Source of the DNA: Semisulcospira habei
Taxonomy: Eukaryota; Mollusca; Gastropoda; Semisulcospiridae
Direction: 5' to 3'
DNA: 64,000 nucleotides
NCBI GenBank assembly: GCA_036245525.1
Contig: BTPG01000001.1
Span: forward strand, 223,133,409 to 223,197,408
Part shown: positions 7,605 through 59,116 of the stretch, piece by piece
Layout of the letters: every line of letters starts with the position of its first letter
Numbering within the stretch: the first letter of the stretch is position 1
Program-made: the position numbers and the translations under genes
The notes under the pieces: model-generated
Seen by the model: the letters and a program-made list of their open reading frames with translations, nothing else
Databases searched by the model: none
Told to the model about the DNA's origin: nothing

Positions 7605-8573
7605 ATGACGACCATGACTGGACTCAACGTAGCATGCTGGAACATCCGAACCATGCTCGACACAGCAGACAGCGGACGCCCTGAACGTCGCTTCACCCTG
7701 TTTGCCCATGAATTGCGGAGGTTAAACATCGACATCGCCGCGCTCAGCGAAGTACGCCTCCCGGAGGAAGGCAGCCTCCAAGAGCTTGGTGCTGGCTACA
7801 CCCTCTACTGGTCAGGCAGGCCTGCATCAGAAAGACGGCTCTCAGGCGTGGGCTTCATGGTCAAGATCCCCATTGTGGCTAAGCTGGAAAACCTACCAAC
7901 GGGTCACTCCGACCGCATCATGTCCATGTGCCTCCCACTGAGACATCAGCAATACGTCACCCTTCTCAGTGTGTACTCCCCAACCCTCCTGGCAGAGCCT
8001 GCAGAAAAAGACAAGTTCTACTCTGACCTGCACAGCCTCCTACAGAGCACCCCTGCAGACGACAAAGTCATCATCCTTGGCGACTTCAACGCCAGAGTGG
8101 GCCAAGACTCTGAAGCCTGGAAAGGAGTCAATGGCAAGCATGGCGTTGGGAACTGCAATGACAATGGCCGCCTGCTGTTGGAGTTCTGTGCAGAGCAGCA
8201 ACTTGTCATCACCAACACTACTTTCCAGCAAAAGGACAGTCGAAAGACCACCTGGATGCATCCACGCTCCAAGCACTGGCACCTTATCGACTATGTCCTA
8301 GTGCGTCAGAGGGACCGCACTGACGTCCTCCTCACCAGAGTGATGCCCAGTGCAGAGTGCCACACTGACCACCACCTTGTCCGCTGCAAACTCAGGCTCC
8401 GCCTCAAGCTGAAACCCAAGAAAGGGCCCCCCCCCCCCCCCACCCACCCTAAGAAAAAGCTTGATGTTGCCAGCCTTCGGCGTGACGACAAGAAAGCTGC
8501 CCTTCAGACAGATTTACAGCGCATGCTCAAAGACACAGTTGATCCATCAGACTCCTCCCCTGAAACACTCTGA
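7605..8573 (+). CDS. LINE endonuclease domain (exonuclease-endonuclease-phosphatase fold)
   Basis: A 322-residue frame starting at ATG. N-terminal LNVACWNIRTM carries the conserved Asn, IAALSEVRL the metal-binding Glu, ILGDFNARVG (about residue 158) the Asp-x-Asn, and the C-terminal TDHHLVRC the catalytic Asp-His. These are the landmarks of APE-like LINE endonucleases, which nick target DNA to prime reverse transcription. In intact relatives the frame runs on into reverse transcriptase. Here a TGA at 8571-8573 ends it. A run of C near 8428-8441 encodes a poly-proline patch. Confidence 0.85.
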   Translation: MTTMTGLNVACWNIRTMLDTADSGRPERRFTLFAHELRRLNIDIAALSEVRLPEEGSLQELGAGYTLYWSGRPASERRLSGVGFMVKIPIVAKLENLPTGHSDRIMSMCLPLRHQQYVTLLSVYSPTLLAEPAEKDKFYSDLHSLLQSTPADDKVIILGDFNARVGQDSEAWKGVNGKHGVGNCNDNGRLLLEFCAEQQLVITNTTFQQKDSRKTTWMHPRSKHWHLIDYVLVRQRDRTDVLLTRVMPSAECHTDHHLVRCKLRLRLKLKPKKGPPPPPTHPKKKLDVASLRRDDKKAALQTDLQRMLKDTVDPSDSSPETL

Positions 8574-10806
8574 GAACAACTGAAAACTGCTATTGCAAAA
8601 TCTTCTGTGGAAGTCTTGGGCTTTGTTAGAAAGAGGAACAAAGACTGGTTTGATGAAAACGACGTAGAGATCCAGGAACTTCTAGCAAAAAAATGAGCCG
8701 CCCACCAGGCCCACCTAGCCCAGCCTTCCTGCCCTGTGAAGAAGTCTGCCTTCCACCTGATCTGCAGCAGTCTCCAGCGCAAGCTTAGAGAGCTCCAGAA
8801 CGAGTGGTGGTCCAGACTGGCACAGAGGACCCAGCTTTGCGCTGACAACGGTGACTACAGGGGCTTCTACGAAGCACTGAAAGCAGTGTATGGCCCCAGG
8901 CACCTGGTACAAAGTCCCCTGCGAAGCGCTGATGGACAGGCACTCCTCACAGATAATACCTCCATCTTGAACCGCTGGTCGGAATACTTTTAGGACCTCT
9001 TTAGCGCTGAGCGCACTGTTCAAGAAACAGTCATCCTCCAAATCCCACACCTCCCACTAAAGGTTGAATTGGACGAACCACCCACCGCTGAAGAGACCCT
9101 CACAGCCATCCACCAGCTCAAGAGTGGCAAAGCAGCAGGCATTGACGGAATCCCTCCAGAGATCTACGAAGCACTGAAAGCAGTGTATGGCCCCAAGCAC
9201 CTGGTACAAAGTCCCCTGCGAAGCGCTGATGGACAGGCACTCCTCACAGATAATACCTCCATTTTGAACCGCTGGTCGGAATACTTTCAGGACCTCTTCA
9301 GCGCTGAGCGCACTGTTCAAGAAAAGTCATCCTCCAAATCCCACACCTCCCACTAAAGGTTGAATTGGATGAACCGCCCACCGATGAAGAGACCCTCACA
9401 GCCATCCACCAGCTCAAGAGTGGCAAAGCAGCAGGCATTGACGGAATCTCTCCAGAGATCTGGAAGCCTGGAGGCCCAGCTCTGCACAACAAGCTCCACG
9501 ACCTCTTTCTCTGCTGCTGGGAGAAAGGAACACTACCAAAGGATCTCTGTGATGCAGTCATCATCACCCTGTACAAGAACAAAGGAGAGAAGTCTGCCTG
9601 CTCTAATTATCGTGGAATTACCCTGCTGTCCATTGCCGGGAAAATTCTCGCAAGGCTGCTTCTGAATCAGCTGGTACCTGTCATCGCTGAAGACCACCTC
9701 CCAGAGGGCCAGTGTGGCTTCAGAGCCAGCAGGAGTACCACCGACATGGTCTTTGTGCTGAGACAGCTTCAGGAGAAGTGCCGCGAGCAGAACAAAAGGC
9801 TGTACGTAACGTTTGTTGACCTAAGAAAAGCGTCAGGCAAGGCATGTGGCAGATCCTGGAGCGACTTGGCTGTCCCCCAAAGTTCCTCAGCATGATCGTC
9901 CAGCTCCATGAGGACCAGCACGCCAGGTCAGACTCAACAATGACCTATCAGAACCATTCTCCATTCTCAACGGCGTGAAGCAGGGCTGCGTGCCGGCACC
10001 GACCCTCTTCACCATCTTCTTTAGCATGATGTTGAAGCAGGCCACAGTGGACCTCGACGATGACGATGCAGTGTACATCAGGTATCGTCTCAATGGCAGC
10101 CTGTTCAACCTCAGACGACTGCAGGCCCACACCAAAACCCTAGACCGACTGATTTGTAAGCTGCTCTTTGCTGACGCTGCCCTCGTTGCACACACAGAGA
10201 GAGCCCTGCAGCGCATCACGCCCTGCTTTGCAGATGCTGCCCAGCTCTTTGGACTCGAGGTCAGTTTGAAAAAGACAAGAGGTCCTTCATCAGCCAGCAC
10301 CCAAGGAAGAGCATCGCCCTCCCCACTTCACCATCGGCGAGCCCGAACTGAAGTCTGTACACCAGTTTACCTACCTTGGCTGCATCATCACGTCAGACGC
10401 CAAGCTGGACAAGGAGCTGGACAACAGGCTGGCAAAAGCGAACAGAGCTTTCAGGCGACTATACAAGCGGGTGTGGCACAATCAACAGCTGAAAAAAGGC
10501 ACCAAGATCAGCGTGTACAGAGCTGTCATCCTCACCACTCTGCTGTATGGTTCCGAGTCCTGGGCCCTCTACCGCAGCCAACTACGACTCCTCGAATGCT
10601 TTCACCAGCGCTGCCTGCGTATCATCCTCAGCATTCACTGGAGTGACTATGTCACCAATGTCGAGGTCCTTGAACAGGCGGAAACTGTGAGATTCGAGGC
10701 TTTGCTGCTGCGGACACAGCTTCGCTGGGCGGGGCACGTCTCCAGGATGGAGGATCATCGCCTACCCAAGATCACTCTGTTCGGCGAGCTCGCCACTGGA
10801 CACTGA
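8574..10806 (+). pseudogene. LINE reverse transcriptase, disrupted
   Basis: The reading continues from the endonuclease through stops at about 8694 and 8991. RT landmarks: a GKAAGIDGI block, SNYRGITLLS, a GFRASRSTTDM block and FVDLRKA (near 9810-9830). Then come frame changes, VKQGCVPAPTLF (about 9978), an LLFADA block (about 10160) and LLYGSESWALY (about 10540). The family's FADD catalytic pair reads FAD followed by Ala here, as if one codon were lost. A 297-bp tandem duplication (8867-9459) precedes the palm. The frame at 10471-10806 holds the thumb-like C-terminal part. Confidence 0.8.
8867..9459 (+). repeat. 297-bp tandem duplication inside the LINE
   Basis: Unit 1 is 8867-9163 and unit 2 is 9164-9459, nearly identical. 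Unit 1 carries a TAG at 8991-8993. Unit 2 lacks one base (near 9322), which shifts frame. The unit length is a multiple of three, so the duplication alone would have kept the frame. Confidence 0.85.
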
Positions 10807-26652: not shown

Positions 26653-27570
26653 TCCTATGTGATCAATAAGCATCAGGACTGGTGCCATAGTAAAGGAGCT
26701 AAAATACGCAGAGTGAAGCCACTTGGCACAGATTTACCTTGACCCCAACCGTGCATGCACACTAAGTTTTAACGTCCTAGATTACTTCCACTCTTTACAG
26801 CAGTGCTTGGAAGGAACGTGTGGTCGTCGCATTGACCATGACAGCGAAAGTTGTGCAGAGAATCTGCATCTAATTTTGCCAAAAGCTTGGCGATACCTGT
26901 GCAGAGGCCTATGCAAAGTTGCAGAAAGTGTATGGCGAGGAGTGTATGAGCTGCACATGAGTGTACGAGTGGTTCAGACATTTCCAAGATGGCCGACAAC
27001 ATGTCGACAATGACGAACGTTCTGGGAGACACACAACCAGCAGAACTGAGAAAAACAAGGGGATTGTTCATCATGCGTATGCTTCACCTGGTCAGAAAGT
27101 AAACAAGGAGTACTACTGTGACATGTTGCAGCGTTTGCGGGATGCTATTTGTCAGAAAAGACCAGAATTGCATGCGTCCCGTGAGTGGCAATTGCACCAT
27201 AACAACGCACCTACCCATTCAGCACAGCTTGTACAGCAGTTTTTGGCGAAGCACAACATACCCCAGATCCGACAGCCACCGTATTCCCCAGATCTCGCCC
27301 CTTGCAACTTTTTCCTCTTTCCAAAAATCAAATCCCACTTGAAAGGAAGAAGATTTCAGGACGTCCAGGAAATCCAAGTGAATGCGATGAGGCAGCTGCC
27401 GATTATCCCAGAAAACCAGTTCCAGGAATGCTTCCATCAATGGAAACAGCGCTGGATTAAGTGTATGGCTTCTGAAGGGGACTACTTTGACGGAGATTAA
27501 ATGCCAAATTGGTCCGTGTTGTAGTTTTCTTTTTATAGCACCAGCCCTGATACTTAATGATCACACCTCG
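26653..27570 (+). mobile_element. mariner transposon, internally deleted
   Basis: Inverted ends: the left TCCTATGTGATCAATAAG and the right, read inverted, CGAGGTGTGATCATTAAG, continuing to a GGACTGGTGC-like block. TA dinucleotides flank both sides (26651-26652, 27571-27572), the mariner target duplication. At about 918 bp it is shorter than the usual 1.25-1.3 kb because the transposase gene has lost its middle. Confidence 0.8.
26900..27500 (+). pseudogene. mariner transposase remnant
   Basis: The N-terminal part (AKLQKVYGEEC, then a TGA, then VYEWFRHFQDG) reaches a DERSGRHTTSRTEKN linker and jumps directly to GIVHHAYASPGQKVN. About 120-130 residues with the first catalytic Asp are gone. The second Asp survives in the HHNNAPTHSA region (as Asn, where the family has HHDNAPAH) and the third in YSPDLAPCNFFLF. 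It ends ASEGDYFDGD and stops at 27500. Two catalytic positions are lost, so the protein is inactive. Confidence 0.8.
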
Positions 27571-48555: not shown

Positions 48556-49133
48556 TGTAACCGGACTCTGGTTAGCTAGCCTTTTACTAGCCTGGCTGGC
48601 TTGTGTATTAGATGGTCAGACCTCAATGGACTGCCCATCCAACGTACAAGTCCAGTAGTGCCAGTCTAGTTCAGTTTTAGCCACCTTTTAAGTCCGTTCC
48701 CTTTTTAGGTTTAGGGAAGGGTCTGGAGATTGTTGTGGAGTGTAATCTTCAAGTCTTTTACACTGGTCTCGCATGCGCACTCACAAAATATGTGTGTCTG
48801 CCTCGCGTTGTGTTCAAAATTACCAAATCGCGCAATGGACCTACCACAGTATCCAGCGAAACCCTAGTTGATATGATCGAGTAGTGACTGTGCGTGCATT
48901 GCCATGTGTGCCACACTAAACTGGTAGAGCTAAGAACGTTAACAAACTCTCAGCATGTTCTCAGTCTCACTGACACACACACGTACACACACACTCTTGC
49001 GCTGCCATCATCACACACTGAAACGTGTACAAACATCAGTACTGACTCGCATCCGTTCTCGCATTCATCATCAATCAGTCTGACTCTCAGTCTCAGCGAT
49101 AAGATTTCTATAAGTGCTTTAGTTTTATTTACA

Positions 49134-49139
49134 GTACAT
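49134..49139 (-). terminator. poly(A) signal in the Gypsy 3' LTR
   Basis: TTTATT on the + strand, AATAAA on the element strand. It lies about 740-760 bases downstream of the predicted transcription start and suits the R/U5 boundary. The same signal is at 56782-56787 in the 5' LTR. Confidence 0.5.
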
Positions 49140-49408
49140 TGACATTCCATTACCAGTCATGATGTCAGACATGTCAAAAACCATTCATTGTAGCACAAAA
49201 CAAAACACAATAATACAGACGCTCATAAGACACCTGAAATCGTAACTATGCTTACCTACTCATTAGACCTTATGAACCCAAAACTATGCTAGCCTACACA
49301 CTAGACGTAATAACTGACACAAGTAAAAACCAAATTCTAATACCCAGTCCTATAGATCAAAAACTCACTTAACTAAGTACTTAAATTACCTACTTAATTA
49401 ATCATAAA

Positions 49409-49895
49409 TGTCCTTTGCGGGACAAAGGCGAATCCGTTTCGGGATTGTTGGGTAGTCCTTTCCGGGACTAGAGAAGATAACACTCGTCCGTTTCTGGACG
49501 AAGCGCTACAACTACACTTAAACCGAGTCCTTTACGGGACTATCTAAACCATGCGGTCTGTCCGTTGCTGGACAGTATTCCTTTACAGGAATTCTACTTA
49601 ACTATGCGTCTATTGCTAGACAGTGTTCCTTCACAGGAATTCTAATTAATTACAGGTCCATCGCTGGACAGTATTCCTTCACAGGAATTCTAATTAACTA
49701 AGTCATGCAGTATGTCCGTTGCTGGACAGTATTCCTTTACAGGAATTCTAATTAACTACAGGTCCATTGCTGGACAGTATTCCTTCGCAGGAATTCTAAC
49801 TTACTAATGTTCTTTGCAGAACAGAGTCTTCTCTTGCGGGAAGCCTCACTACTATTTAATGTTCTTTTGCAGAACAGAGTTTTCCCTTGCGGGAA
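49409..49895 (-). other. array of about 19 small GNRA-loop hairpins, 3' LTR copy
   Basis: Consecutive stem-loops, mostly 5-bp stems with 6-base loops. Examples on the + strand: AGTCC-TTTCCG-GGACT, TGTCC-GTTGCT-GGACA, ATTCC-TTTACA-GGAAT, GTCT-ATTGCT-AGAC, TGTTC-TTTGCA-GAACA. Stems vary in sequence yet remain paired. The four middle loop bases always fit TYNC, which is GNRA on the element's sense strand. From the sixth hairpin on they come as doublets about 50 bases apart. Confidence 0.8.
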
Positions 49896-50070
49896 TGCTA
49901 GGCACCGCTATTTATACCCCACACCCCTAGGGGTGCCTTTCGCCGATTGGCTTACGCATTACTCGCTCTGGCACCAGCAGCATCGCTAACTGTACTGGGC
50001 CTGCGGGCGTGCTGGGGGAAATTGGTACTACTGTACTAGAACACTGAGCTAAATTATCTCCCCTGCTACA

Positions 50071-51240: not shown

Positions 51241-51753
51241 CTAAGTAAGGCTCTTATCAGGCACAACGTCATATAGTAAACCGTCCACTACCCTCAGATT
51301 GTCCCACTGAGCTATTAGTGTTCTGACAGCTGCGCTATACTTGCAAACTTCTGTCCTAGGAGGCTTCTCTCCTTTCTCTATCAGAGCTATTAGAATGCTA
51401 GTCACTGGATCTCTCTTTTGGAATATCTCTAAGTCCTCACGAGACCAGCTAGCAAACCAGTTGCTTTCCGGCATGCCAGGACCAAACGCAGAAGACTGAG
51501 CAGAATCCACGGTATCCCCTTTAGACATTGAGGCAGAATTACTCTGATCCGATTCATCTTCCCTGACTACTACACTGGACCTGTCGGTGGTAGTGTCGCC
51601 CTGACTTTCACTGATAGTTGGGTCCGCACGCGGAACATCTTCACCCTTCGGTGAAGCAGCGTTCCTCTGAGAACCGCTAGCTTTCCCAACATCAGCCGAG
51701 TCATGGCCACGTGCTTGCCGACGTGTCACCACTCTCACATGCTGCTTGCACAC
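51241..51753 (-). pseudogene. duplicated Gypsy pol linker (second copy)
   Basis: The frame starts with QHVRVVTRRQARGHD and ends GLLYDVVPDKSLT. It parallels the linker in 51978-52620 (HVRVVTRSQVRGHD, RNAASPKGEDVP, NWFAVWSREDL), so the RNase H-integrase linker occurs twice. This copy lacks the DSCVDENS repeat of the first copy. It ends in a stop where the zinc-binding domain should begin. Confidence 0.75.
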
Positions 51754-51977: not shown

Positions 51978-53300
51978 TACTCTCAGACTGTCCCACTGAG
52001 CTATTAGTGTTCTAACGGCTGCACTATACTTTGAAACTTCTGGCTTTAAAGGCTTCTCTCCCCTCGCTATTTAAGGCTAACAGAGTGCTACACACTGGAT
52101 CCCTCTCTTGGAACTTCGCTAAGTCCTCACGAGACCAGACAGCAAACCAATTGTTCTCACAAGAAATAGAGTCCGACGCTACAGGAACACTATCAGACCC
52201 ACTGTTATCATCCACACAGGAATCAACACTGTTCTCATCCACACAGGAATCAACCCCGGTCCGACCCGCATGCTCCATCCCATCCCTTTCCTCTAGGGAC
52301 GCGCCCTCTAAATCTCTCGACATGCCAGGATTAGATGTACTAGACTGAGCAGAATATAAGGTATCCTCAGCTGACACTGAGGCAGAATTACTCTGAACCA
52401 TGTCATCTACTCTGACCGTTACACGTGTCCTGTTACTGGTAGAACTGCCCTGAAAGTCGCCGACAACTGGGTCCACATGCGGAACATCTTCACCTTTCGG
52501 TGAAGCAGCGTTCCTCTGAGTACCGCTTGCTTCTCCACTGTCTGCTACATCATGGCCACGCACTTGCGAGCGTGTCACCACCCTTACATGCACACAACAC
52601 TGACTGCACTCTTCCCTCAAACAACGTCTTCTAGGGATTCTAGACAACCCATCCGCATTCCCATGTAGGGAGTCCCTTTCCGGTGCTCTATCTGGAAATC
52701 GTATGTTTCCAATGTAGCCACCCACCTGGCTACCATGCCTTCAGTCTGATCGAATGATTTCAACCACCTTAGGGAGCTGTGATCAGTTCTGACCAAAAAC
52801 GGACGTCCCCAAAGATAGTGTGAAAAATGCTTGACGAACTTTATCACTGCATACAACTCTCTGTGTGTGGTACAGTATCTCTGCCTAGACTTAGACAAAG
52901 TACAACTCGCGTAAGCGATCACTTTCTCTTCTCCACCTTGGATCTGTGACAACACGGCACCAACCGCTGTTGCCGAAGCATCAGTATCGAGGATAAATTT
53001 ATCCTCTCTCGTCGGATAAGCTAAGACGGGTGAAGAGACCAGAGCTGCCTTCAATTTCTCGAACGCAGTCTGACACTTCCTGCACCAGTCAAACTTCTGG
53101 TTTTTCTTAGTCAGGTTAGTCAGGGGACTGGCTATCTCTGCAAAACCACAAATGTACTTCCTATAGTACGACGTGATCCCTAAGAAGCTTCTGACCTCCA
53201 TAACATTAGTAGGAACAGGCCAGTTAACCACTGCCTCCACTTTCGCTGGATCACAAGTCGTCCCTTCACGCCGGACACGACATGACCGAGAAAGGTACAC
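51978..53300 (-). pseudogene. Gypsy RNase H and linker
   Basis: The 52617-53300 frame carries the RT connection (FLGITSYYRKYI), RNase H with ILDTDASATAVGAVLSQ and RTDHSSLRWL, and ends by frameshift near 52690. The following frame (52024-52725) continues with HGNADGLSRIPRR, Cys-rich text and an acidic linker with a short repeat (DSCVDENSVDSCVDDNS), then NWFAVWSREDL. Confidence 0.85.
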
Positions 53301-54244
53301 TCACTTTGAAACAAACAGCATTTGGACGGTTTTAGTTTCAGATTTGCTTCCCTGAACTTCTGGAAAACGACCCTGAGATTCTCTAGTGCCTGACTTTCTG
53401 TCTTGCCTAAACAGATTACATCATCAATGTAAACTAGACACCTCTCGAACAAAACACCGCTCAGTGTCATTTCCATCAATCTTTCAAATGTCGCTGGGCT
53501 GTTGCAAAGCCCGAACGGCATAACTTTGAACTGAAAAAGGCCTTTGTGCGTTGCAAACGCAGTCTTTTGTTTATCTTTATCGTCCATCTCAACTTGAAAG
53601 AAACCCTGAGCTAAATCGAGAGTTGAAAACCAACAAGAACCCGACAAAGCATCAAGCGAATCTCCGATATGAGGAAGGGGATACGCATCCTTGCGCGTCA
53701 CATGATTCAATCTCCTGTAATCGACACAGAACCTGACAGACCCGTCCTTTTTCTTGACCAACACCACGTTTGCTGCCCAAGGACTATCACTGGGTTCTAT
53801 GACATTTTCTTCTAACATCTTTTCAATTTCTTTCTCCACAGTTTCTCTTTGAGCTAACGGAAGACGACGGGGAGGTAGTTTCACTGGCTTACTATCCCCG
53901 GTATCAATCGTATGTTTCACTTTGCTCGTTCTACCAAGCTTACCACCTGCGGACTGAAAAACATCTTGAAACTCAACAAGAGTTTCCTTCAACTTTGTTT
54001 TTGTCCCTTCACTTATTTCTGACGACACACTAGTAACCAGGTGCTCGAGGTGACTAGGAAGTTTATCGTCCGCATACACTACTTCTTTCTCCTCCGACCC
54101 TTCGGACAAAGAATTCACAGAAAACACAGTTTCTACAAATGCTACTTCTGTGCCATCTTGCACCTTAACATCTCTATCAGTAAAATTGGTAAGCGGAACA
54201 AAAACCTCTCCGTCCGTAACCTGAACCATACACCTAGGGACCAC
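53180..54244 (-). CDS. Gypsy reverse transcriptase
   Basis: A 354-residue frame. Typical blocks: EIEKMLEENVIEPSDSPWA, VRFCVDYRRLNHVT, FSTLDLAQGFFQV, VMPFGLCNSPATF, catalytic YIDDV (about 53427) and a TFLGHVVS block. It is separated from protease by a frame change at the homopolymer 54258-54264 and from RNase H by one near 53265. The RT core itself is open. Confidence 0.9.
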   Translation of the reverse strand: MVPRCMVQVTDGEVFVPLTNFTDRDVKVQDGTEVAFVETVFSVNSLSEGSEEKEVVYADDKLPSHLEHLVTSVSSEISEGTKTKLKETLVEFQDVFQSAGGKLGRTSKVKHTIDTGDSKPVKLPPRRLPLAQRETVEKEIEKMLEENVIEPSDSPWAANVVLVKKKDGSVRFCVDYRRLNHVTRKDAYPLPHIGDSLDALSGSCWFSTLDLAQGFFQVEMDDKDKQKTAFATHKGLFQFKVMPFGLCNSPATFERLMEMTLSGVLFERCLVYIDDVICLGKTESQALENLRVVFQKFREANLKLKPSKCCLFQSECTFLGHVVSGVKGRLVIQRKWRQWLTGLFLLMLWRSEAS

Positions 54245-54860
54245 TAGCCCTGTGTCTTTTTTTGAACTTGTCTATGCCCTCTAACAATCCATCAGTTTTT
54301 CCTAAAGTACGTTGCTGTACAAAGGATCCCCTGACGAACATTTCCGATTTAGGGGGCACAATGACGGTATCGCACACCTGTACTCTTGCACAGATATTCG
54401 ACTTTTCCCTTTTCAACTGAACCACTGCCTCGCCTACTCTCAAAGAACCTTGTGCCAAGTCTAATAGACAGGCATGTTTCTGCATGAAATCTGTCCCCAA
54501 AATTCCTGCAGATTTCCCAATATCACCAACGACCACAGTGTGTTCGAAAATTTGACCACCTATTTCTAGAGCTAGGACCGCTTCACCCTTAATCTCTAGA
54601 CTCTGTCCATTAGCAGTGCAAAGTCTTAACTTACTTTCTCTCAGTGGAATCTGGAAATCTCCTCTTACTTGCTCAAACACTTCTGTGCCAATGACCGTAG
54701 CAGAAGACCCGCTATCAACTAAACAGTCCATGTTTACTTTCCCCATATTCACTAATGCCAACCAGCATCCTGTGTTTGACAATACGCATAAACGTTGCCC
54801 CTTAGCGTCCTCTAAGCAGCCGTCATCACTGATTAATTGGGCCGAGTCTCGGGCTGCCAA
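54234..54860 (-). CDS. Gypsy aspartic protease region
   Basis: A 208-residue frame with the retropepsin active site CLVDSGSSATVIG (about 54700) and a downstream AGILGTDFM block, the usual flap-to-second-helix text. The frame is shifted relative to gag, as is common for Gypsy gag-pol junctions. Confidence 0.85.
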   Translation of the reverse strand: MAARDSAQLISDDGCLEDAKGQRLCVLSNTGCWLALVNMGKVNMDCLVDSGSSATVIGTEVFEQVRGDFQIPLRESKLRLCTANGQSLEIKGEAVLALEIGGQIFEHTVVVGDIGKSAGILGTDFMQKHACLLDLAQGSLRVGEAVVQLKREKSNICARVQVCDTVIVPPKSEMFVRGSFVQQRTLGKTDGLLEGIDKFKKRHRASGP

Positions 54861-54874
54861 GAGCTCTGCCCGCT

Positions 54875-55958
54875 CTAGTTTCCCTGGCCTGGCGCGTTTT
54901 CGTTAGGCGCTGTGCCACTGACATGGCCATTTCCTCTCCTATCGCTGTTATTGGGGCACTGCTTTGAATAGTGTCCCTTCTCTCTGCAGTTAAAGCACAC
55001 AAACTCGGCTGTGTTTCTAGCTCTACCACCAGTCGGCTGACGACTCAAAACTTTCGTTACTTTCTGTAGCTCTGAAGTGATTTTGTCACTAAGCATCTGG
55101 AAAGCTTTCGCTAGACTTTCATCTATCACCTCTGTAGGACTGATATTCCGGACTCCTCCCTCTGGATTATCTGGCTTCCTACCCTCAAACCTCTCTTCAA
55201 AAGACTCAAACTCACTCGCTAGTGCTATGGCCTCATGGATGGTGGAAGGATGGTGAAACTGTACATGTCTCCTCAGGTCTTTAGATGGCAAACCACTGAC
55301 AAACTGATCTATCACGATTGTCTCCCTTGCTTCGGGGGGCATTCGAGGATAAGCATTACTCGCAATGCGGTTCAACACGAAACCATACTCTGTCACGCTT
55401 TCGTTCTTCTTCTTCAACCTGGATCTGAACTCAACTCTGTACAAATTTTCTTTTTCTACGGGGTCAAAACGTCTTTCTAAGGCAGCTTTGATAGCATCGT
55501 AATCTTCCAACTCGCCTAATGATAGCTCACCTAGCACCTGTTGTGCTGAACCTCTGAGTGACATGGCAAGGTTTACTCCCTTTTCATCATAGTCCCAACC
55601 GTTCCATCTAGCGCACGTTTCAAAATGACAGAACCAATCCTTTAAATCACCTTTGGTGCCCGTGAACACATCAGGGACCCTCTCCTTCCTAGCACGACTG
55701 CTACTTGCATTCAGAAAAGAGCTAGTTGTTATCTACTCTGTTCTGTGGAGAACGATGACTACAGCTACTGCGGCTGCACGAACTCTCTTCACTACTACTA
55801 TATGACTCACTAGGTGAATGCCTGCCTTTTCCCTGAGACTTCTTCCTCTTGTGATCTACCTTTGGGTGAACACTAGACGGACTGTGCACCAACCAGCTTG
55901 GCGCTAGGATCCTCAAAAAGCACAAAACTGCACCCATATTGCAATGACCAAAGCTCAC
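54875..55958 (-). pseudogene. Gypsy gag (two frames)
   Basis: The N-terminal frame 55722-55958 is Ser/Lys/Arg-rich. A one-base frame change near 55725 leads to the 54875-55669 frame with capsid-like text (a WFCHFETCARWNGWD block, FVSGLPSKDLRRHVQF) and a CCHC knuckle, CFNCREKGHYSKQC, at about 54980-55020. Gag forms the particle that packages element RNA. Confidence 0.8.
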
Positions 55959-56189
55959 ACTAGGCGAACTAAATCATAAACTACAATAAACCGCTCTAAA
56001 CGAATGAACGATGGCTAGACTCAAAAGTACACGACTGATACCAATGAAAACGCTTCACGACGCTACTAGCGCGAACTGTCCAGTACCATCACGTTAACAT
56101 AAACAGACTTTGGCAAAGGCGCTCTGCACAGTACACTACTGATATATCAACCAGTCCTAGTCTTTGAAACAAAACTGGATCAATCAAGA

Positions 56190-56208
56190 AATCCTGGTCA
56201 CGGCACCA
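56190..56208 (-). other. Gypsy primer-binding site, tRNA-His
   Basis: Nineteen bases equal to the 3' end of animal tRNA-His plus CCA (+ strand text ends CACGGCACCA), so the element RNA can pair with that tRNA. The site lies six bases inside the 5' LTR. Identification of the tRNA is from memory of insect tRNA-His. Confidence 0.75.
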
Positions 56209-57066
56209 AATTTTTGTAACCGGACTCTGGTTAGCTAGCCTTTTACTAGCCTGGCTGGCTTGTGTATTAGATGGTCAGACCTCAATGGACTGCCCATCCA
56301 ACGTACAAGTCCAGTAGTGCCAGTCTAGTTCAGTTTTAGCCACCTTTTAAGTCCGTTCCCTTTTTAGGTTTAGGGAAGGGTCTGGAGATTGCTGTGGAGT
56401 GTAATCTTCAAGTCTTTTACACTGGTCTCGCATGCGCACTCACAAAATATGTGTATCTGCCTCGCGTTGTGTTCAAAATTACCAAATCGCGCAATGGACC
56501 TACCACAGTATCCAGCGAAACCCTAGTTGATATGATCGAGTAGTGACTGTGCGTGCATTGCCATGTGTGCCACACTAAACTGGTATAAGCTAAGAACGTT
56601 AACAAACTCTCAGCATGTTCTCAGTCTCACTGACACACACACGTACACACACACTCTTGCGCTGCCATCATCACACACTGAAACGTGTACAAACATCAGT
56701 ACTGACTCGCATCCGTTCTCGCATTCATCATCAATCTCTGACTCTCAGTCTCAGCGATAATATTTCTATAAGTGCTTTAGTTTTATTTACAGTACATTGA
56801 CATTCCATTACCAGTCATGATGTCAGACATGTCAAAAACCATTCATTGTAGCACAAAACAAAACACAATAATACAGACGCTCATAAGACACCTGAAATCG
56901 TAACTATGCTTACCTACTCATTAGACCTTATGAACCCAAAACTATGCTAGCCTACACACTAGACGTAATAACTGACACAAGTAAAAACCAAATTCTAATA
57001 CCCAGTCCTATAGATCAAAAACTCACTTAACTAAGTACTTAAATTACCTACTTAATTAATCATAAA

Positions 57067-57553
57067 TGTCCTTTGCGGGACAAAGGCGAATCCGTTTCGG
57101 GATTGTTGGGTAGTCCTTTCCGGGACTAGAGAAGATAACACTCGTCCGTTTCTGGACGAAGCGCTACAACTACACTTAAACCGAGTCATTTACGGGACTA
57201 TCTAAACCATGCGGTCTGTCCGTTGCTGGACAGTATTCCTTTACAGGAATTCTACTTAACTATGCGTCTATTGCTAGACAGTGTTCCTTCACAGGAATTC
57301 TAATTAATTACAGGTCCATCGCTGGACAGTATTCCTTCACAGGAATTCTAATTAACTAAGTCATGCAGTATGTCCGTTGCTGGACAGTATTCCTTTACAG
57401 GAATTCTAATTAACTACAGGTCCATTGCTGGACAGTATTCCTTCGCAGGAATTCTAACTTACTAATGTTCTTTGCAGAACAGAGTCTTCTCTTGCGGGAA
57501 GCCTCACTACTATTTAATGTTCTTTTGCAGAACAGAGTTTTCCCTTGCGGGAA
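57067..57553 (-). other. array of GNRA-loop hairpins, 5' LTR copy (RNA leader)
   Basis: Matches the array in the other LTR. The fifth hairpin has one broken pair here (AGTCA/GGACT). The array starts about 27-35 bases downstream of the TATA box, so it would form the very 5' end of the element's RNA. Confidence 0.8.
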
Positions 57554-57579
57554 GCCTGCTCGCTTTTGCTAGGCACCGC

Positions 57580-57587
57580 TATTTATA
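57580..57587 (-). promoter_or_regulatory. Gypsy LTR TATA box
   Basis: TATTTATA on the + strand, TATAAATA on the element strand, in the 5' LTR. Predicted start site 57550-57557. It is the only good TATA in the LTR. Confidence 0.6.
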
Positions 57588-57756
57588 CCCCACACCCCTA
57601 GGGGTGTGTTCGGCGTGCCTTTCGCCGATTGGCTTACGCATTACTCGCTCTGGCACCAGCAGCATCGCTAACTGTACTGGGCCTGCGGGCGTGCTGGGGG
57701 AAATTGGTACTACTGTACTAGAACACTGAGCTAAATTATCTCCCCTGCTACAGTAG

Positions 57757-58408
57757 ACAACCTTCTCGCCTGTAGCCACTGCAAAGGGCTCTATCAAAAA
57801 AAGCTGATCTCTGTACACTCAAAACGTTGCTGTCAGAAACCAGGAGGGTTTCAGTTCGCTAAGAGAGGTGAGGTGGCACGACATGGGAGGCTAATGCTTC
57901 CAATACCCTTAGACGTTGACTTTTCCTTCTATCATAAGGTTTTAGCCAGACAGAGAGATGATGAGATAAGCCATCTCATCAGAACTGACCCCTTGCTTCT
58001 TGAGTATGGAAAGAGATTATTTGACCGCAGGGACATTGAAGAACACACGGCTGGGCAAATCAGCTTCAGGATGCGAGAGTTAGGGAGACTATTAAAGATT
58101 CTTAGAGTGAGGTCAGAAATGAAAATCACAAGTTTAAATGCTGTGATCAATTCAGCTAGCTTTGATCATGTTGTACTGGCTGTAAAAGAGCTAGCAGAAT
58201 TTGATGAGGACACACATCAGTTCAAAAAAGGCAATCTTGCAATGTGCATAGGCCATGCTTTGAAAAAATGTTCACACATCAAACAGTTGCAGGCATCCAA
58301 ACAGCTTGGGCATGGTTCAGATGACAGGTGGCGACAGGAGCTCTCTGAGGCGCAGCGGTTTGACTGTCTTCACCGGGGACTGGTACAATTGTGTGTCAGC
58401 TACAGCAC
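57757..58408 (+). pseudogene. Crypton-like gene, second finger and N-terminal recombinase region
   Basis: Resumes the frame after the Gypsy element: CSHCKGLYQKKLISVHSKRC finger, then MLPIPLDVDF, a RDDEISHLIRTDPLLLEYG block and RMRELGRLLKILR. The helical text continues to FDCLHRGLVQLC, where a repeat is inserted. No stop between 57757 and 58408. Confidence 0.65.
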
Positions 58409-59111
58409 TGTACAACAAACCAAGGGGAATTACTCAGCGCTGGACAACAGTTAGATCCCCTGCCCCCGCCTATCAGGCACCCAATCGCCAGCCCACAGAN
58501 NNNNNNNNNTGTACAACAAACCAAGGGGAATTACTCAGCGCTGGACAACAGTTAGATCCCCTGCCCCCGCCTATCAGGCACCCAATCGCCAGCCCACAGA
58601 GAAATACGCAGGTATAGAATAAGACGATCATTTGCATCTTCAAATAAGATGCATCAGGTCTCTTATATAACCCATGTCTTTCTCCGGAACTTAGGAAGTA
58701 GGCAGGGGAAACATACATACACACAAACACGAAGGTGCATTACTATATGTGGTCGGGTAAATACCCTGAATTCCTACAGTAGATGCACAGAACATTACAC
58801 AACAATGTAACGATACAAATTTGCCTCGAATTATACTGAGATACTCACAAACCAGATAGGTGAGGCTAGCGCTGGCAGAATTGTACAACAAACCAAGGGG
58901 AATTACTCAGCGCTGGACAACAGTTAGATCCCCTGCCCCTGCCTATCAGGCACCCAATCGCCATCTATACCTGCGTATTTCTGTGGGCTGGCGATTGGGT
59001 GCCTGATAGGCGGGGGCAGGGGATCTAACTGTTGTCCAGCGCTGAGTAATTCCCCTTGGTTTGTTGTACAATTCTGCCAGCGCTAGCCTCACCTATCTGG
59101 TTTGTGAGTAT
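58409..59111. mobile_element. palindromic repeat insertion in the Crypton-like gene
   Basis: Flanked by a 12-base direct repeat TCAGCTACAGCA (58397-58408 and 59111-59122). It contains two identical 91-bp blocks around an assembly gap, text shared with 11728-12540, and a terminal palindrome of about 280 bp. Confidence 0.6.
58500..58509. other. assembly gap (10 N)
   Basis: Ten N between identical 91-bp blocks 58409-58499 and 58510-58600. Confidence 0.99.
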
Positions 59112-59116
59112 CTCAG
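58836..59116. repeat. palindrome, arms about 128 bp
   Basis: From CTGAGATACTCACAAACC at the left to its complement at the right; centre near 58976 with about 24 unpaired bases. The arms are almost identical, so the palindrome is recent or conversion-maintained. Confidence 0.85.

Follow-up and report, generated by a model that had tools for sequence, protein, structure and literature searches.

A string of GNRA-type hairpins at the predicted 5′ end of the RNA of a Ty3/Gypsy element in Semisulcospira habei

The element and its parts

Why would a retrotransposon carry a string of about 19 small hairpins with GNRA-type loops at what is predicted to be the very beginning of its RNA? This question is raised by a Ty3/Gypsy element located on the minus strand of a 64-kb stretch of DNA from Semisulcospira habei, which is referred to below as the window. 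The element shows the characteristics of the Ty3/Gypsy group, namely paired long terminal repeats (LTRs) with TG..CA ends, a CCHC Gag, and the order protease–reverse transcriptase–RNase H. Its parts are as follows:

56215..57752 (−), 5′ LTR, 1538 bp, TG..CA, delimited by alignment of both LTRs
48556..50070 (−), 3′ LTR, 1515 bp, delimited by alignment of both LTRs
57067..57553 (−), hairpin array, 5′ LTR copy, 19 GNRA hairpins, of which 14 form 7 doublets (57553 to 57217) and the last 5 stand alone (57199 to 57067)
49409..49895 (−), hairpin array, 3′ LTR copy, counterpart of the 5′ LTR array
57582..57587 (−), TATAAA of the 5′ LTR, starting 34 nt before the first hairpin
49911..49916 (−), TATAAA of the 3′ LTR (copy L026), with the first hairpin just 21 nt away
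56782..56787 (−), AATAAA, the sole one within 57752-55601, putatively used for polyadenylation
56191..56208 (−), primer-binding-site-like stretch, 6 nt past the 5′ LTR
54875..55669 (−), Gag fragment containing a single CCHC zinc knuckle; a premature stop lies upstream in gag of the window copy
54234..54860 (−), aspartic protease
53180..54244 (−), reverse transcriptase
52617..53300 (−), RNase H region

The alignment of the two LTRs comprises 1540 columns with 5 mismatches and 27 gap columns, and this small number of differences indicates that the insertion is young. The initial annotation had placed the array correctly in both LTRs, but the LTRs themselves extend beyond the coordinates that it gave, to the boundaries listed above. 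Two segments of the 5′ LTR that are absent from the 3′ LTR, 57554-57566 (13 bp) and 57604-57614 (11 bp), flank the TATA box; the short distance between TATAAA and the first hairpin in the 3′ LTR results from the absence of the 13 bp. The primer-binding-site-like stretch bears what we take to be a resemblance to the 3′ end of tRNA-His.

The window copy is broken, as its gag frame from the ATG at 55937 comprises just 71 codons, and the six frames submitted to Pfam gave no match to an integrase. Among the 36 Gag relatives listed, three rows name an organism, and each of these is a gastropod (Batillaria or Pomacea). Several other repeats and mobile sequences were also observed in the window: a 274-bp direct repeat (76% identity) within the element, 3′ of RNase H (51469-51742 and 52318-52591); near-perfect inverted and direct repeats of approximately 100–130 bp at 58403-59116, just outside the 5′ LTR; a mariner-like transposase fragment (DDE_3, Transposase_1) at 26961-27500 (+); and pieces of a non-LTR retrotransposon, encoding endonuclease and reverse transcriptase, at 7605-9895 (+).

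Hairpin number, stem covariation and loop identity

The presence of about 19 consecutive hairpins in each LTR, proposed in the initial annotation, was confirmed at 19 units in both. Under a strict criterion for a GNRA hairpin, which demands at least 4 outer Watson–Crick pairs around N-GNRA-N, 16 of the 19 units in the 5′ LTR and 17 of the 19 in the 3′ LTR were detected, whereas dinucleotide shuffles (2000 per array) yielded means of 0.083 and 0.097 strict hairpins and a maximum of 2. The opposite strand contains no strict GNRA hairpin in either array, and in the rest of the 64-kb window such hairpins occur isolated or paired per kb. The suggested doublet arrangement was also recovered: counted from the RNA 5′ end, units 1–14 form the seven doublets and units 15–19 stand singly. 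One unit of the 5′ LTR array is damaged (57184-57199) and its 3′ LTR counterpart is intact. A 45-codon upstream open reading frame starts within the array (57189-57052, −).

Loops and stems were compared in an alignment of 18 units of the 3′ LTR in a 16-nt register, 16 of them distinct, from which unit 2 was omitted since its loop is one base longer. As had been claimed, the loops of all 18 units conform to GNRA, and they represent six types (GCAA, GUAA, GUGA, GCGA, GAAA, and GGAA); 6 of the 16 distinct units have a non-standard closing pair, close to the third originally estimated. The further claim that the stems differ between units yet change on both sides holds for five of the six pairs in the 18 aligned units. 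Two-sided stem changes occupy 20 cells, as compared with a mean of 7.2 after shuffling, and the covariation score of 0.482 was reached by none of 500 shuffles (0.135 when shuffled) and fell to at most 0.117 when the partner strand was slid. An alignment at the level of doublets, which covers six of the seven and whose doublet was also used to build a covariance model, gives the same picture of covariation as the single units. The inner part of the stem, TCC/GGA, is mostly constant, and the outer pairs vary jointly.

A search of the 1.98-Gb source assembly identified 53 copies of the family, each with 5–25 units (median 18). When counts were confined to the array proper, the 53 arrays contained 931 GNRA hairpins, with the loops GCAA (387), GUAA (181), GUGA (109), GCGA (93), GAAA (90), GGAA (38), GAGA (32), and GGGA (1); thus, seven GNRA types recur and the eighth occurs once. 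Hairpin-like matches with non-GNRA loops numbered 66 inside these arrays, of which 41 are a single recurrent spacer palindrome with an ATTA loop, AGTT-A-ATTA-G-AATT, that lies between doublets (e.g., copy L071, ~305-315). Among the 40 copies in which individual loop cells were scored, GNRA is obeyed in 702 of the 709 readable cells, the remaining 51 of 760 being gapped, including unit-2 forms of other length. Unit 17 is absent from 9 of these 40 copies and one of the 53 copies has only five units, indicating that no fixed unit number is needed. Three same-strand LTR arrays with equal search scores (L059, L060, and L061; G000 C8 ~9.567-9.582 Mb), spaced approximately 7255 bp apart, look like a tandem element with a common middle LTR.

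Loop variants were examined in 46 copies, which represent 33 insertions after LTR pairs were merged and in which unit forms of other length were dropped. Variants common to at least two insertions kept GNRA in nine of nine cases, as compared with 5 of 16 private variants (Fisher P = 0.001), and loop changes shared in this way affected no positions other than N and R. On a parsimony tree built from 850 nt of flanking LTR sequence in 44 copies (L039 and L066 pruned), 36 loop changes on internal branches kept or restored GNRA and one, the lone exception to this pattern, broke it; on terminal branches the corresponding numbers were 23 and 9. Since copies and units recombine, the events in both the tree and the variant test are over-counted, and because units exchange sequence, transfer from one GNRA unit to another can by itself propagate variants that keep GNRA, with no need for selection acting on each. 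Stem changes common to at least two insertions in the 46 copies affect either the outermost pair or both sides of the inner pair of unit 12, which changes across copies from T-A to C-G, with T-G intermediates present; the tree places six inner-stem changes on internal branches, two of which (units 7 and 18) are unlike the unit 12 type. Simple recent duplication of one unit, raised at the outset as an alternative, was rejected in view of the two-sided stem changes and the contrast between shared and private loop variants.

Strand, position and a sister family

The expectation that the array begins where the TATA box predicts transcription to start was borne out in most copies: the first hairpin lies 34–35 nt past the start of TATAAA in 36 of the 45 copies that have an upstream TATAAA. 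The spacing differs in the other 9 of the 45, including the window 3′ LTR (21 nt), and an exact TATAAA is absent from the stretch examined in 8 of the 53 copies. If the AATAAA located 3′ of the array is used, the array should sit in R and occur at both ends of the RNA; an ATTAAA that starts at 57518, within the array, makes the R boundary ambiguous.

The initial annotation had left the strand of the structure in doubt. This doubt persists for the pairing of the window family itself, which is found in 85 of 96 cells on the sense strand and 91 on the antisense strand, with in-context pair probabilities (0.71 sense and 0.70 antisense) that do not separate the strands; for units 1, 3, 18, and 19 the mean in-context sense-strand probability is at most 0.23. 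The sense strand is nevertheless indicated by the loop rule, by the fold energy of the array (z −5.8 sense, −3.2 antisense), and, most clearly, by the array of a sister family described below. An antisense-strand structure, despite its slight edge in own-family pairing, was rejected on the same three grounds.

The sister family was found through a Gag search of the source genome, in which 112 of 5269 candidates were scored. These included a higher-scoring group, to which the window copy belongs, and a lower-scoring group (76 rows) in which the gag frames are mostly open. Upstream of gag, the own-family array is present in three of three regions of the higher group (L096, L100, and L101), and a different array is present in six of seven regions of the lower group (L097, L098, and L102-L105). 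The seventh region, L099, was considered as a further array-bearing family and rejected, as it contains neither array and no match to the window LTR. L097 and L098 show ~77% identity to the window LTR over approximately 190 nt near the 3′ end of the latter, and their promoter-proximal site is occupied by 10 and 7 units, respectively, with a period of 48–50 nt. In the four sister copies whose sequence covers both features (L098, L103, L104, and L105), the first hairpin is located 24–30 nt past the start of TATATAAA. A second tandem repeat of approximately 50 bp is found 3′ of the hairpin array in the LTR of the sister family (L098:1899-2013).

The minimum-energy fold of the L098 sense strand consists of seven clean hairpins, and the antisense strand has no such fold. 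Each hairpin comprises a stem of 5–6 bp, a 1×1 mismatch (lacking in the first unit), an upper stem of 6 bp that contains G-U pairs, and a loop of 5 nt. The fold energy of the array is modest (z −1.7 sense, +0.1 antisense) because the linkers are unstructured. In an alignment of 12 sister units, 11 of them distinct, from which a degenerate unit of L103 (~163) was omitted, two-sided changes affect 6 of the 11 pairs, among them each of the five outer ones. The covariation score is 0.360, as compared with 0.197 after shuffling, and none of 500 shuffles reached it; sliding lowered it to 0.159 or less. The number of further pair types in these 12 units did not exceed that of shuffles (282 of 500). 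Sense pairing is found in 114 of 121 cells and antisense pairing in 87. The loops are GAAUA, GAACA, and GCAUA, all of the form GNRNA, and are closed by U-A in all 12 aligned units. A hairpin scan that was blind to the loop returned GNRNA in 40 of 40 matches inside the six sister arrays, as compared with 2 of 24 outside, and added a unit (L105:145-173) in which C-G takes the place of the closing U-A, providing one more two-sided change.

Proposed role and comparison with known systems

Two related families thus carry, at the predicted 5′ end of their RNA, unlike hairpin strings with paired stem variation and with loops that vary mostly where a GNRA-type fold allows, which argues for selection on RNA shape; RNA-level selection for a string of GNRA-fold hairpins at the 5′ end of the RNA is considered highly probable. 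For such an RNA-level function, the initial annotation had named packaging, dimerization, translation control, and nuclease protection as candidates. The explanation that we favor overall, with a probability of roughly 45%, is that the GNRA-fold array is a multivalent landing platform, most likely for the Gag of the element itself. The array would start at, or a few nt from, the predicted 5′ end of the genomic RNA and would be repeated in the 3′ R copy; arrays would be retained for their RNA rather than their DNA, and many weak hairpins of the same fold could together form a multivalent platform for an RNA-binding protein that would read the GNRA fold and not the sequence. The reader would most likely be the element's own Gag, with its one zinc knuckle, and the array would then mark full-length RNA for assembly. 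A multivalent protein platform of some kind is somewhat favored; the assignment of that protein to Gag, and of the role to packaging, is tentative. Gag is preferred because retroviral packaging elements sit in the leader, where nucleocapsid binds hairpin loops (PMC7599994), and further because the element has a CCHC Gag of its own and many copies of one fold suit avidity. The same source reports that a loop change in HIV-1 psi hardly affected packaging (PMC7599994). A more speculative proposal, somewhat less likely than not, is that this Gypsy clade has a standing need for a 5′-terminal string of GNRA-fold hairpins, which different families would meet with unlike sequences, one with GNRA tetraloops and another with GNRNA pentaloops like that of boxB.

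Control of translation or stability, in which 5′-terminal hairpins would protect or insulate cap-proximal RNA or guide ribosomes past the leader, is an unlikely explanation. The array is located at the predicted cap, and the leader, which extends for approximately 1.6 kb between the predicted start and the ATG of gag (55937), contains 30 ATGs, so that simple scanning is improbable without splicing or another device; however, single hairpins have little stability (about −2 to −10 kcal/mol), and a plain obstacle has no need of GNRA-type loops.

RNA–RNA docking, by which GNRA loops would enter the minor grooves of other hairpins and bring about compaction or genome dimerization, appears rather improbable. 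A CC:GG step can serve as a receptor for GNRA loops. Such a step is kept near the loop in most own-family stems, and GNRA tetraloop–receptor contacts are named as a dimerization device in the literature (PMC7357161), but the 11-nt receptor half CCTAAG is absent from 57752-55601, and in the sister family no CC:GG adjoins the loop, yet the loop fold is kept.

It is quite improbable that the function resides in the DNA, where a dimeric protein would recognize the imperfect palindromes, as in an insulator or downstream promoter array, and the RNA hairpin would be a by-product. The mostly constant inner stem of the window family, the nearly constant core of the sister family, and the position of the arrays just inside the promoter would suit such a function, and the insulator of Drosophila gypsy is located in a similar place. 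Nevertheless, the outer stem pairs vary, but do so jointly, the GNRA loop rule holds on one strand only, and the G-U pairs of the sister family are meaningful solely in sense-strand RNA. A neutral origin, in which a hairpin seed that appeared by chance was expanded in tandem by unequal template switching, could produce the range of 5–25 units and the variants common to different units and lineages, but is very improbable given that 16 distinct units of 18 stay paired via two-sided changes, that the GNRA-breaking loop variants of the 46-copy test were all private, and that the arrays of two families differ in sequence yet share a similar loop fold and a matching site.

If the clade-wide need for such hairpins proposed above is real, the strings would constitute a modular RNA code that is read by its fold, through which Gag or a host factor would recognize the element RNA multivalently and independently of sequence. 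To our knowledge, little has been established about the means by which LTR retrotransposons other than those of yeast label their RNA. With up to 25 hairpins, covariation within one sequence, and a sister family, the system amounts to a natural mutational experiment, and the question is directly testable. For repeat annotation, it is a warning that such arrays resemble ordinary tandem repeats of LTRs.

Known RNA families and other genomes were also searched. In Rfam (56000-57800, E up to 5), no family reached its gathering score, the one match, with 15.9 bits where the cut-off is 72, lying outside the array. In viral contigs, a 15-base array pattern matched 24 stretches, none with at least 4 units in 500 nt, which were taken as chance; a longer array pattern gave no match, and alignments to Gag (0 of 21 stretches) and to reverse transcriptase (0 of 40) were likewise negative. 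In prokaryote genome contigs, none of 159 stretches gave a Gag alignment, and the 15 reverse transcriptase loci recovered from 74 stretches have no more than two GNRA hairpins per 500 nt. Among the titles and abstract openings listed in searches of an open library, from which most subscription papers are absent, none concerned GNRA hairpin arrays in LTR elements. Structured leader elements are already known as a kind.

The boxB element of phage lambda serves antitermination and is read by the N protein. N prefers a GNRNA pentaloop, which adopts a GNRA-type tetraloop fold by extruding one base and for which the closing U-A matters (PMC12027372). Accordingly, boxB and the sister array share GNRNA loops closed by U-A (11 of 11 distinct aligned sister units). 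They differ in that the sister unit at L105:145-173 is closed by C-G, in that the window family has true GNRA tetraloops, and in that there is no N protein here. The guanidine-II riboswitch has ACGR loops and occurs in bacterial hosts. This riboswitch (mini-ykkC) consists of two small stem-loops (PMC7357161). It resembles the window array in having short hairpins in tandem, but has two of them.

The Drosophila gypsy insulator is composed of tandem Su(Hw) sites within the 5′ untranslated portion of its Gypsy element. Its units are DNA sites of one recognition sequence, whereas the stems of the window array vary and covary and the array starts at the predicted RNA start; insulator-type repeats of one fixed sequence were rejected for this array, as the outer stems vary on both sides and only the inner TCC/GGA is mostly constant. 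A further likeness concerns a GACG-hairpin pair in the leaders of type C retroviruses, a motif reportedly described by Konings and colleagues in 1992. This pair has a role in packaging and dimerization and is located downstream of the primer-binding site. None of the 18 window units examined has a GACG tetraloop, all being GNRA, and the known motif is a single pair with GACG loops, whereas the window family has up to 25 hairpins with GNRA loops at the very 5′ end of the RNA. The two are alike in consisting of hairpin pairs with conserved tetraloops in the 5′ untranslated region of a retroelement, and the pairing of hairpins that characterizes the retroviral motif recurs in the window array, where 14 of the 19 units form the seven doublets.
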